IMG/VR virus record: IMGVR_UViG_3300020198_000006
Span: 30,152-94,151 of that record
Origin: a virus
DNA length: 64,000 nt
Strand: one strand, 5' to 3'
Shown: positions 19,983-30,235 of the stretch, piece after piece
Numbering within the stretch: position 1 is the stretch's first letter
How the letters are laid out: every line of letters starts with the position of its first letter
Notes under the pieces: generated by a model
The model's input: the letters and a program-made list of their open reading frames with translations, nothing else
Database searches by the model: none
What the model was told of the DNA's origin: nothing
Position numbers and translations under genes: made by a program

Positions 19983-22001
19983 ATGCCAGTAGATTTTTTT
20001 GAAGAAGGACCGACGACCACCCCTAAAAGGGGGAAAAAGGGTTCAACAACCCCAATTCTTGATAATTTTTCAAGGGATTTAAACAAATTAGCTGAAGAGG
20101 GTAAAATAGACCCAATCATCGGTAGAGATAAGGAAGTAAAAAGAATCGCACAGATACTTTCCCGTAAGAAGAAAAACAACGTAGTTGTTGTTGGTGATTC
20201 TGGTGTTGGTAAATCGGCATTAGTTGAAAAATTGGCAATGTTAATTGTCAAGGGTGAGTCTCCATCTAATCTAATAGACAAACGAATAATGTCTTTAGAT
20301 TTAACTTCTCTTGTTGCGGGAACAAAGTATCGTGGCCAATTTGAAGAAAGAATTAAAGCGATATTAAATGAACTTCATAATGAACCAAATGTAATCATCT
20401 TCATTGATGAATTACATACCATGATTGGTGCGGGAAATGCTAGTGGTTCAATGGATGCTGCTAATATACTTAAGCCCGCTCTTGCAAGAGGAGAAATACA
20501 ATGTATCGGAGCAACAACCTTTGATGAATTTAAAAAACATATTGAGAAGGATTCAGCATTGGTTAGAAGATTTCAAAAAATAGTTTTAAAGGAACCTACC
20601 TATCAAGAGACAATACAAATTCTACAAAACTTAAAGGATTCATATCAAAACTATCATAAAGTATTCTACGAAGATGGTGTCATTGATACCATTGTTAAAC
20701 TATCTGGTCGTTTCATAACAGACAGACAATTCCCCGATAAGGCAATAGACGTATTAGACGAACTTGGTTCAGATAAAAAAATAAATATCAAAGTTCCCGA
20801 CATTGTCGAGAAACTAAAAAAGGATGCTGACGAAATCAAAAACAAGAAGATACTTGTAGTAAAGAGTCAGAACTATGAACAAGCAGCAAAGCTCAGAGAT
20901 GAAGAAAGAAAAATAATGTTAAAACTAGAAGCAGAAAAAAATAAGTGGTTAGAACAACAAAAAGATAACAAGACACCAATCTATGTTGATGATGTCTATG
21001 AGATTGTATCTAACATGACGGGTGTTCCCATTACAAAGTTAGACGACAACGAAACAAAAAACTTATTAAATCTTGAGGAGATATTGTCCTCCAAGGTTAT
21101 TGGACAAAACGAAGCGATATCAATTATATCTAAAGCGATTAGAAGAAATAGAGTTGGGATAAAAGATAATAACAAACCAATTGGTTCATTTATATTCTTA
21201 GGTTCTACAGGTGTTGGTAAAACATTTCTTGCAAAATCAATTGCTGAATTATTATTTGGTGACCCCGAAAAAGTGATTCGTGTTGATATGAGTGAGTTTA
21301 TGGAAAAACACAATGTATCTCGACTCATTGGCTCACCTCCTGGTTATGTTGGGTATGATGAGGGGGGTCAACTTACCGAAAAAATTAAAAACAACCCATT
21401 TGCTGTTGTATTATTTGACGAAATTGAAAAAGCACATAAAGATGTATTCAACATCCTTCTTCAGATTTTAGATGAAGGATATTTGACTGATTCTTTTGGT
21501 AGAAAAGTAAACTTTACTAATACTATCATAATCATGACCTCAAACATCGGCACCAAGAAAGTTTTCGATTTCGGAGGCGGTGTTGGATTCAATACCTCGT
21601 CAAGTGAAACCCAAAAGTATGAGATTAGAAAATCAATCATACAAAAATCACTTAAACAACAATTTAATCCCGAATTCTTAAATCGTATTGATGATGTTAT
21701 TTTATTCAATGCACTCAATGAAGAAACTATTAATAAAATTATCGAGATTGAACTTTCGAAATTGGTTACAAGATTGTGCGAAAAAAACTTCAACATTTTG
21801 TTTGATAAAAGTGTAATCAATCAAATTGCAGAACTTAATACCCAAGAGGAGTATGGTGCTCGACCAATAAAAAGAATAATACAAAACTTGTGTGAAGACT
21901 TTCTTTCCGATGAAATATTGAGGGGCACAATAAAAGAAAATCAGGTAACTACAATTAGGTTTAAGGATGGCCAACTAAAGATTTTAGATAAAATGGTGTA
22001 A
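19983..22001 (+). CDS. clpC: ClpC/ClpA-type AAA+ unfoldase lacking the N-domain
   Basis: A Hsp100 ATPase that unfolds proteins for a partner peptidase. Two AAA+ modules are complete: GDSGVGKS (71-78) with FIDELHT (140-146), and GSTGVGKT (about 407-414) with [10 protein letters not shown]. The usual N-terminal repeat domain is missing; the protein starts almost directly at D1. A UVR-like middle segment ([14 protein letters not shown], about 295-308) points to ClpC rather than ClpB. The VGFN tripeptide region (about 534-537) corresponds to the ClpP-docking loop of ClpC, so it may dock on host ClpP. Length is 672 residues. No clpP gene is visible. Confidence 0.92.
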
Positions 22002-25477: not shown

Positions 25478-25553
25478 GGTCGGGTAGCTCAGCGGTAGAG
25501 CAATCTCACTAAAACGAGACGTGACGCGATAGGTTCGACCCCTCCCCCAACCA
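25478..25553 (+). tRNA. Degenerate tRNA-like element (8-base anticodon loop)
   Basis: It has canonical size (76 bases) and landmarks: TA at 8-9, D arm GCTC-AGCGGTA-GAGC, and TTCGACC at the T loop. However, the acceptor GGTCGGG/CCCAACC has one mismatch and the T stem keeps three pairs. The anticodon stem TCTC/GAGA encloses eight bases (ACTAAAAC), so the identity cannot be assigned. It is probably a decayed tRNA; an unusual functional tRNA is less likely. Confidence 0.4.
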
Positions 25554-25599
25554 CTACGATTATCGTTCTTTGACATATTTTTAAAAAACAATTATTATT

Positions 25600-25956
25600 A
25601 TGGAACAGTTATTTGCATTTGTTCTTGGTGTTGGCATTATGTCATTGATTTATGGTTTAGTGTTAGTATTGAGAATGAGAAAAGAACTCAACAATGTTGA
25701 ATCAAATTTACATAACACAAAAGATGAGGTTATGTCAATTAATAGGGAAATTGAAAGAATCGATAAGAGAATTGACTCAAGGGTCGATAAACTTACCGAT
25801 ATAATATTTCGAGAATTAGAAAATAAGGAAAAAGACCTCCAAGATTCTATGACTCGAAATTATGAACAAACAAACAGAGATTTTGAATCCGTATGGAGAG
25901 AAATTGATAAACAACAACAAAACAAAAATAAAACACGTAAAGTGTTAACAGACTAA
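25600..25956 (+). CDS. Membrane-anchored coiled-coil protein
   Basis: This 118-residue protein has one N-terminal membrane segment (FAFVLGVGIMSLIYGLVLVL, about residues 5-24) followed by a long Glu/Lys/Arg/Asp coiled coil (about 30-105) and a basic tail. It resembles in plan the protein at 48559. The topology would fit a spanin-like inner-membrane subunit or an anchor, but no specific motif supports either. It lies inside the tRNA-like array. Confidence 0.6.
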   Translation: MEQLFAFVLGVGIMSLIYGLVLVLRMRKELNNVESNLHNTKDEVMSINREIERIDKRIDSRVDKLTDIIFRELENKEKDLQDSMTRNYEQTNRDFESVWREIDKQQQNKNKTRKVLTD

Positions 25957-25990: not shown

Positions 25991-26062
25991 GTTCCTGTCG
26001 TCTAATGGTTAGGACACCTCCCTTTCACGAAAGTCATGTCGGTTCGAGTCCGACCTTGGGGG
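25991..26062 (+). tRNA. tRNA-Glu(TTC)-like element with mismatched stems
   Basis: The 5' half is textbook tRNA-Glu: D arm GTCT-AATGGTT-AGGAC and anticodon loop CTTTCAC with TTC at 26024-26026. The T arm GTCGG-TTCGAGT-CCGAC is perfect. But the anticodon stem CCTCC/GAAAG has two C-A mismatches and the acceptor 5' GTTCCTG does not match the 3' side CTTGGGG. It looks like a fusion of two tRNA genes within one, as expected from recombination in a tRNA array. Confidence 0.45.
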
Positions 26063-26306: not shown

Positions 26307-26378
26307 GTCTCCTTAGCTCAGCGGTAGAGCATCTCGCTGTTAACGAGAGGGTCCGAGGTTCGAAACCTCGAGGGGACG
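26307..26378 (+). tRNA. tRNA-Asn(GTT)
   Basis: A complete cloverleaf: acceptor GTCTCCT/AGGGGAC, D arm GCTC-AGCGGTA-GAGC, anticodon arm TCTCG-CTGTTAA-CGAGA with GTT, T arm CGAGG-TTCGAAA-CCTCG, discriminator G. The CCA end is not encoded. It is the only fully regular tRNA in the island. Confidence 0.95.
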
Positions 26379-26383
26379 CTTTA

Positions 26384-26437
26384 GGACCCTTAGGACTCAT
26401 AATCATTAGGCCCACGGTTCGAGCCCGTGAGGGTCCA
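26384..26437 (+). tRNA. D-arm-less tRNA(CAT)
   Basis: The acceptor GGACCCT/AGGGTCC and T arm CACGG-TTCGAGC-CCGTG are perfect, and the anticodon loop CTCATAA (Met or Ile2 type) is canonical. Total length is 54 bases because positions 8-26, the whole D arm, are absent and the anticodon stem is weakened. The sequence around the junction suggests deletion between short TAG repeats. It is probably non-functional. Confidence 0.5.
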
Positions 26438-26505: not shown

Positions 26506-26537
26506 TTTTGGAATTTGGTTTTTTTCCTTTATCCTTG
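26506..26537 (+). promoter_or_regulatory. Possible promoter of the large structured RNA
   Basis: TTTTGG (26506-26511) and TATCCTTG (26530-26537) with an 18-base spacer resemble the host-type promoter with one mismatch. An A/T-tract region (26473-26508) that could act as an UP-like or bent element precedes it. Confidence 0.35.
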
Positions 26538-26541
26538 TAAA

Positions 26542-27465
26542 AGATTTGAGGATTTAGATATTGAGTCGAGAATCCAAAAAATAAGATTGTTCTTTGAATT
26601 AAGATATTGGGCGGTCTATAGTCCATAAAATAAACCATGAAAGTGGTATAAAGTGACCTATTTGGTTTAAGTAGGTTGCGGCTTCCGCAAGGGAGCTCGA
26701 GTAGACAAACGAGGTATCGTTGAATCTTGAGTACCGAGGGTAACACTGTAGGGAAAGTGGTTTGATGAACGGGGGATGCGGGTCCTTCGTTTGAGGTGGG
26801 AACACCAATAAGAATAACTCGTAAGGTTTATGCAAGAAACACGGTCATCCAACTATGTCATTGCGTAATTCAATATGATGGGAATCTTAAAACCGAAAGG
26901 TATGGTTGTGTACGGGTGGTGCTGTTACAATCCTTGAATTGAATCTGCCAAGGTTTATTTCATGAAGGGGTCCAAAAATATGGAGGTCGGGAGACTTCAG
27001 AGGGTAGTTCAGTATCGTGTTGTCCAAAAGATAACATGGCTGGTTGTCGAGCCGCTACCTTCACCATCCGCGAACCAATACTTTGGTCTAATCAATGTCC
27101 AAAACATTAAATTAAATCAAGGAAAAGCGCTCGTCAGTCGTCGGAAACAGGTGACTACTTAGTAATGATGTGTTCATTGCCGTAGAGGGCTCCAAACCCA
27201 ATACGATTTTTAAGAAAGTTCTCTAATCTCGCAAGGATTAATTGGGGTGGCAACCTCGAAGAGTGATGAGTATTAAGAGAGTATTCGATGACTCAAGGAT
27301 TGGTTAATCTAATTGACCGTCACTGGTTGGTACAACCCAAAAGGTTGTGGATATGAAGGCAAACCATAAACCTTCTAAAGTCAACTACATAAACGTGTAA
27401 TCTCAACGTGTTTTTTATTTTATTGAGAAGCCAACCGCTATATTAAGTCAGAAGAAATTCTGACT
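26542..27465 (+). ncRNA. Large structured non-coding RNA, GOLLD/ROOL-like candidate
   Basis: This ~0.9 kb stretch has no coding frame of substance but many local helices. Examples are TTGCGG-CTT-CCGCAA (near 26677-26691), CC-GAAA-GG (near 26893), GTCA/TGAC around 27135-27155, AATC-TCGCAAG-GATT (near 27225), GGT-GGCA-ACC (near 27245) and ACAACC-CAAAA-GGTTGT (near 27330-27346). Loops of the GNRA type recur. It directly follows the tRNA array and ends in a strong terminator at 27446. Size, phage origin and tRNA adjacency match the published GOLLD class (about 800 bases) better than the shorter ROOL class. I cannot align it to a covariance model here, and the 5' boundary is approximate. Confidence 0.6.
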
Positions 27466-27471
27466 TTTTTT
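27446..27471 (+). terminator. Intrinsic terminator of the large RNA
   Basis: AGTCAGAA (27446-27453) and TTCTGACT (27458-27465) with a GAAA loop, followed by seven T. Confidence 0.9.
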
Positions 27472-29685: not shown

Positions 29686-30082
29686 GGGGGTGACAGGCAT
29701 TGATTGGCGTTGATATGGTAAATGGGCACGTAGTCGGATGTCATCTACGACTTAAATCTATGGTGGTAGTTTTTAAACGGCAACGTTTATAACAACATGG
29801 AAGTAGCAGGTCTTCTTGCAACTTCTAAAGTAGCGGCCTAACCAAGTTAGGTTCTACAACGGGTCGACGGACATATAACCCAGGAACAGAAGTCCTTACG
29901 GTGTAACACCACCTCAGAGTGTTGGAGCAAACTTGACGGCTCTTGAAAATCCGGTTATGAACAGGTTTGTTAATAGCTCTGAAAGAAATTAACTATTTGT
30001 TGGTTATGAATAATCAAATAAACGTGTAGTCCATTTATGATATTGCGAACAAGACGCGGGTTCGAATCCCGCCATCTCCACA
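29686..30082 (+). ncRNA. ssrA: tmRNA (ssrA)
   Basis: The tRNA-like ends pair: GGGGGTG (29686-29692) with CATCTCC (30073-30079), allowing wobble. The T arm GCGGG-TTCGAAT-CCCGC is perfect. The mRNA-like part has a frame at 29779-29841 that encodes a tag of about 20 residues, GNVYNNMEVAGLLATSKVAA, followed by TAA and a hairpin. tmRNA rescues stalled ribosomes and marks the products for Clp proteases; the Ala-Ala end is the usual degron. The resume codon (GGC, 29779) is inferred from the frame. The CCA end is not encoded. A terminator follows. Confidence 0.93.
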
Positions 30083-30087
30083 AAAAG

Positions 30088-30141: not shown

Positions 30142-30235
30142 GCAAAGAGGTCAATTAAGACCCCTTTGCCTAGATGTTGGATACCCCCTTTCGTTTTTTA
30201 GTTTAGTTATCATCTATTGGCGACCAAACCAATAG
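30142..30235. other. Two hairpins in a non-coding gap
   Basis: GCAAAGAGGTC pairs with GACCCCTTTGC (30142-30152 and 30159-30169, one mismatch), and CTATTGG with CCAATAG (30214-30220 and 30229-30235). There is no gene between the tmRNA terminator and 30267. They could be a small RNA, or 3' structures of the convergent operon. Confidence 0.3.

Follow-up and report, generated by a model that had tools for sequence, protein, structure and literature searches.

The question raised here is what is encoded in a gene-free stretch of about 0.9 kb, located at positions 26542–27465 (+ strand) of a 64,000-nucleotide viral DNA sequence, which corresponds to positions 30,152–94,151 of the IMG/VR record IMGVR_UViG_3300020198_000006 and is referred to below as the window. 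An initial annotation, made from the sequence alone, proposed that this site encodes a giant structured RNA resembling GOLLD or ROOL. The analysis described here indicates that the stretch is probably a full-length GOLLD RNA gene of a large tailed phage of Bacteroidota, the product of which would form a cage and would be transcribed like rRNA. The window contains genes for head, portal and terminase proteins, which show that the phage is tailed.

Identification of the GOLLD RNA gene

A search with the Rfam covariance models, which the initial annotation had suggested for GOLLD and ROOL, matched positions 27000–27409 to RF02032 (GOLLD) over the complete model (positions 1–416), with a score of 309 bits against a cut-off of 150 and an E-value of 1.5e-87. 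The RF02032 model represents the 3′-domain of GOLLD only; the 5′-domain (26605–26998), which was defined by covariation, consists of approximately 395 nucleotides arranged in about 18 helices and four branched units. These and all other elements of the GOLLD locus described below are on the + strand, and the 94,151-base virus record contains a single GOLLD copy. The ROOL model gave no match in the window, either at the gathering score or at E-values of up to 1, and no other Rfam family matched the RNA; ROOL and other Rfam families are therefore rejected as its identity. The suggestions that it might be a diverged member or a new class are likewise set aside: the score is twice the cut-off, and the match is full-length. 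The GOLLD identity is thus supported by the full-length RF02032 match, by covariation over the whole 0.8 kb and by the phage setting beside tRNA genes, the nearest tRNA-like gene ending at 26436. The RNA resembles published GOLLD (RF02032), including env-38, which was determined by cryo-EM to be a 14-mer cage (PMC12286853), in its 3′-domain, its length of about 0.8 kb, its two-domain organization and its phage tRNA neighbors. ROOL RNA is also large, phage-linked, cage-forming and found near tRNA genes, but differs in sequence, size and secondary structure.

The absence of a gene from this stretch, of about 0.9 kb as first noted, was confirmed. Its folding energy is −275.3 kcal/mol, compared with −236.7 kcal/mol for shuffled sequences (z = −4.99; reached by 0/20 shuffles), and the hairpins with GNRA-type loops recognized initially are real and conserved, with GAAA at 26639–26642 found in 36/36 homologues and CGAAAG at 26894–26899 in 30/36. 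A diverged or frameshifted protein gene, which would be compatible with the open stretches of up to 96 amino acids in the window, has a negligible probability: the longest stop-free run in six frames ranges from 57 to 151 amino acids across the homologues, no frame is open across them and no conserved protein was found, and the covariation described below comprises 989 cells with two-sided pair changes versus 265 in shuffles. The protein-gene explanation is refuted by the lack of a conserved frame together with this covariation. Of the outcomes that the initial annotation named as refuting a structured RNA, neither an absence of covariation nor a hidden protein gene was thus observed.

Conservation and secondary structure

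Homologues were collected with two patterns. The first, taken from the DNA encoding the 3′-end of the RNA, yielded 71 viral contigs, nearly all of which carry the RNA, with 64 full-length loci, and the second yielded 65 further contigs, giving more than 120 homologues on viral contigs; both patterns derive from the GOLLD type of the window and are uninformative on other types. The 5′-domain of about 395 nucleotides and the 3′-domain were both present in all 128 loci with enough upstream sequence, and therefore the whole RNA of about 0.8 kb is conserved within this phage group. The core is 803 nucleotides long in the window and 783–848 nucleotides in the homologues. One locus (L041) is a near-identical copy of that in the window (99.9%), and two phage genomes of 635–642 kb from another collection (L073 and L074) also carry GOLLD. 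Another record (L166, G182) has two GOLLD genes 16 kb apart on one contig (19736–20149 and 36280–36673), so that mixed cages are conceivable in this phage. Among bacterial genome contigs, 28 pattern matches were obtained, of which 18 were scanned and 10 were not; none of the 18 held GOLLD, and GOLLD of this type was thus not found as a prophage among them. A plasmid search found no similar DNA.

Covariation, which the initial annotation had named as a check, was assessed in 36 distinct homologous sequences. RNAalifold predicted 193 pairs, 134 of which show two-sided compensatory changes. For a hand-made structure of 200 pairs, 90.7% of cells are paired versus 77.2% in shuffles, two-sided cells number 989 versus 265, and the covariation score is 0.461 versus 0.195 in shuffles and 0.07–0.13 when the structure is slid; none of 500 shuffles matched its pairing, two-sided cells or covariation score. 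Helices 9, 13, 25, 30 and 32 of this structure are one base off register, so these counts understate the pairing.

When strands were searched against each other, two pairings that are not nested with the rest of the structure were identified. One is a pseudoknotted helix (27046–27052 with 27129–27135), which closes the linker described below and crosses P13; 99.6% of its cells are paired, and five of its seven pairs show two-sided changes. The other is a kissing helix between GCGGGU in a hairpin loop of the 5′-domain (26778–26783) and AUCCGC (27066–27071), located directly after P13 and before the linker. It is paired in 216/216 cells in all 36 sequences, with two-sided changes in four of six pairs, and in 174/174 cells in 29 new sequences that had not been used for its discovery; the variants ACCGGU/AUCGGU, CCGAGU/AUUCGG and GUAGAU/AUCUAC occur in other homologues. 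The kissing helix, which falls outside the 3′-only model of Rfam, may form within one chain or between chains, and is apparently new relative to the published description of GOLLD.

Features related to cage assembly

In the solved GOLLD structure, nucleotides 497–538 form the linker, which lies inside the cage, and nucleotides 656–657 are the dinucleotide through which L21a pairs with itself (PMC12286853). The window has a variable AU-rich linker of 46 nucleotides (27073–27118; 26% GC) in the corresponding position, and an L21a hairpin (27226–27238), the published cage bridge B8, with the self-complementary loop dinucleotide GC at 27231–27232; relative to the first base of the 3′-domain, both fall within a few bases of where they would be expected. 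The linker is 30–51 nucleotides long with 10–30% GC in the 36 homologues, none of which has a tRNA inside it. The L21a loop is GC in 31 homologues and CG in five, which corresponds to the published GC/CG switch; this switch in a self-complementary loop supports assembly, and the RNA likely forms a cage as env-38 does.

Promoter, leader and 3′-end

The consensus of Bacteroidota promoters is TTTG/TAnnTTTG. Such a promoter was identified at 26507–26537, with TTTG at 26507–26510, a spacer of 19 nucleotides and TATCCTTG at 26530–26537, which makes a transcription start near 26542 plausible. A generic scan for the sigma-70 consensus found 23 promoters versus 19.5 expected, which is not above chance. 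Downstream of the Bacteroidota-type promoter, the leader contains a GGATT...AATCC inverted repeat (26550–26575), at the place where relatives have a boxB-like hairpin, and an exact copy of the 9-mer GTTCTTTGA (26589–26597), a boxA predicted to act as an antitermination signal of the rRNA type. Of 35 GOLLD leaders, 33 have the exact GTTCTTTGA, where 0.6 would be expected even if one mismatch were tolerated; so do 27 of 29 new leaders (0.01 expected), the remaining two having GTTCTTTAA, and the two sets together give 60/64. Of 63 non-redundant loci of GOLLD, 46 have TAnnTTTG followed by boxA, and 44 of the 46 also have a −33 element; a small hairpin of variable sequence usually lies between TAnnTTTG and boxA.

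Across the phylum, the same 9-mer is present in 7 of 28 Bacteroidota rRNA leaders (0.02 expected) and GTTCATTGA in six, and the rRNA operons of many Flavobacteriaceae have GTTCATTGA or close variants in the same layout. In these phages, the element also lies 5′ of several tRNA genes, and it is found exactly or with one mismatch 5′ of 14 of 15 tmRNA genes (six exact). A second GTTCTTTGA, preceded by a small hairpin, is located at 25565 in the window, between the first tRNA-like gene and a 118-amino acid frame (25600–25956). The GOLLD leader resembles the boxB–boxA leader of rRNA operons (PMC10250234, PMC4807359) in having a promoter, usually a small hairpin and an exact Bacteroidota boxA, but the phage leaders drive GOLLD, tRNA and tmRNA genes rather than rRNA, and no boxC was identified in them. 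Recruitment of the rRNA antitermination complex in Escherichia coli requires boxA and needs no other element; this complex has also been proposed to aid the folding of nascent rRNA (PMC10250234). A search of the literature that combined GOLLD with boxA or with antitermination returned no GOLLD paper among the top results, and the boxA leader is apparently new relative to the published description.

The 3′-end of the RNA likely lies at the P27 hairpin and the U-run that follows it (27393–27424); the hairpin has the loop GUAAUCUCA in 35/36 homologues, and the U-run is found in most of them. The terminator noted initially was located at 27445–27466, where it would serve as a back-up intrinsic terminator.

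tRNA and tmRNA genes near GOLLD

The last standard tRNA gene 5′ of GOLLD, identified by tRNA and Rfam searches, encodes tRNA-Asn(GTT) (26307–26379, + strand). It is followed by a 53-nucleotide tRNA-Met(CAT)-like sequence (26384–26436), also present in L041, with a perfect 7-bp acceptor-stem and a T-arm but no D-arm; such a sequence is uncommon in phages, and it may represent either a pseudogene or a tRNA that genuinely has no D-arm. Two further tRNA-like genes score poorly: one at 25478–25554, with an 8-nucleotide anticodon-loop and a C-A mismatch in the acceptor-stem, and one at 25997–26060 (Glu, TTC), with mismatched acceptor- and anticodon-stems.

A phage tmRNA gene (29686–30083, + strand; RF00023, 73.5 bits), for which ARAGORN predicted a tag peptide, is located 2.3 kb 3′ of GOLLD; its tag is long (GNVYNNMEVAGLLATSKVAA), and a G-U pair occupies the alanine-identity place. 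In two sets of 25 and 29 records, ranging from 8 to 322 kb, tmRNAs above the cut-off were found in 18 and 16, respectively. The tmRNA is 0.1–3.4 kb from GOLLD in 31 of these 34 tmRNA-bearing records and 6.3 kb away in one, always on the 3′-side, and is far from GOLLD in the other two; it mostly faces GOLLD, but has the same direction as GOLLD in the window and in records closely related to it. Because the tmRNA is near GOLLD although the records span 8–322 kb, its position is far from random, and common descent explains part of this. The linkage is apparently new, and the text consulted on published GOLLD (PMC12286853) mentions neither the tmRNA linkage nor the boxA leader nor the kissing helix. 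Other neighbors include a ClpB/ClpC-type AAA chaperone of 672 amino acids (19983–22001), relatives of which are near GOLLD in 22 loci, and, about 3–6 kb upstream of GOLLD in L036 and 14 other loci, a glutamine synthetase-like protein, named from sequence reading.

Proposed mechanism and alternative explanations

The sequence elements suggest that host RNA polymerase would start near 26542 at the Bacteroidota promoter and that the leader boxA would bring in the NusB-NusE antitermination complex of the host, in the manner of rRNA operons, with the result that the long untranslated RNA would be completed at a high level; this rRNA-like route appears to be the best supported mechanistic step. According to the covariation, the RNA of about 0.8 kb folds into 5′- and 3′-domains tied by the kissing helix between loop and linker region, with the pseudoknot closing off the short AU-rich linker. 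By analogy with the solved relative, A-minor contacts and the self-pairing of loops such as L21a would join the copies into a symmetric, hollow cage that encloses the linker. Finally, late in infection the cage may act on translation, for instance by binding or retaining ribosomes, tRNAs or tmRNA, a role hypothesized because GOLLD shares its leader type and neighborhood with phage tRNAs and tmRNA; this role is possible, at less than even confidence. It is tentatively proposed, with similar reserve, that GOLLD, the tRNA genes and tmRNA constitute one stable-RNA regulon that borrows host rRNA antitermination via boxA, with the cage acting on translation.

Several observations weigh against parts of this scheme. 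The published L20-J13/15 contact (bridge B7) of env-38 was recovered neither by eye nor by the strand-against-strand search, the helix numbering of the paper being uncertainly mapped, and the strand after P13 pairs with the 5′-domain loop rather than forming this contact. The likeness to env-38 is drawn from the 3′-domain, linker and L21a. The leader hairpin, folded in relatives, is weak and not significant in the window, and the window tmRNA leader lacks the clear boxA of most relatives. Transcription and expression are deduced from sequence elements, and the host group from just two of these, the promoter and boxA. A shared leader and gene neighborhood, moreover, do not prove a shared function.

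The unrecovered inter-chain contact, with cage assembly itself a prediction, would suit a GOLLD RNA that acts cage-free in these phages, for instance as a scaffold on which a phage protein is held by a monomer or small oligomer; this is quite improbable given the GC-to-CG switch of the self-pairing L21a loop, a linker whose size and place fit a cage, and a near-consensus 3′ ring domain. It is also unlikely that GTTCTTTGA belongs to an extended promoter, or is a different signal for the processing of stable RNAs, instead of an antitermination site: the motif does lie 10–60 nucleotides past the promoter at most loci, two leaders lack it, and NusB-NusE binding is a prediction, but the variable distance argues against a promoter part, and the identical 9-mer occupies the boxA place of rRNA leaders in Bacteroidota. 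The function of the cage is where a competing explanation has more weight. GOLLD expression rises during lysis (PMC12286853) and ROOL RNA, related in style, was reportedly present in phage particles after purification (PMC12191101), so the cage might serve packaging, the virion or lysis, with tRNA and tmRNA as neighbors only through a common zone of boxA-leader transcription, since boxA by itself would account for the clustering. This is somewhat doubtful, as a published GOLLD pull-down recovered ribosomes (PMC12286853) and tmRNA is close by even in long records.

Significance

Very few RNAs found in nature are known, as GOLLD is, to build a cage without protein. The present analysis places GOLLD in phages of 0.2–0.64 Mb, in a large uniform family in which a structure conserved over the full length, predicted ends of the RNA, a boxA leader and a recurrent tmRNA provide testable handles on two questions, namely how a long untranslated RNA is fully transcribed and whether it acts on translation. 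The boxA leader and the tmRNA neighbor represent a new lead on the job of GOLLD.
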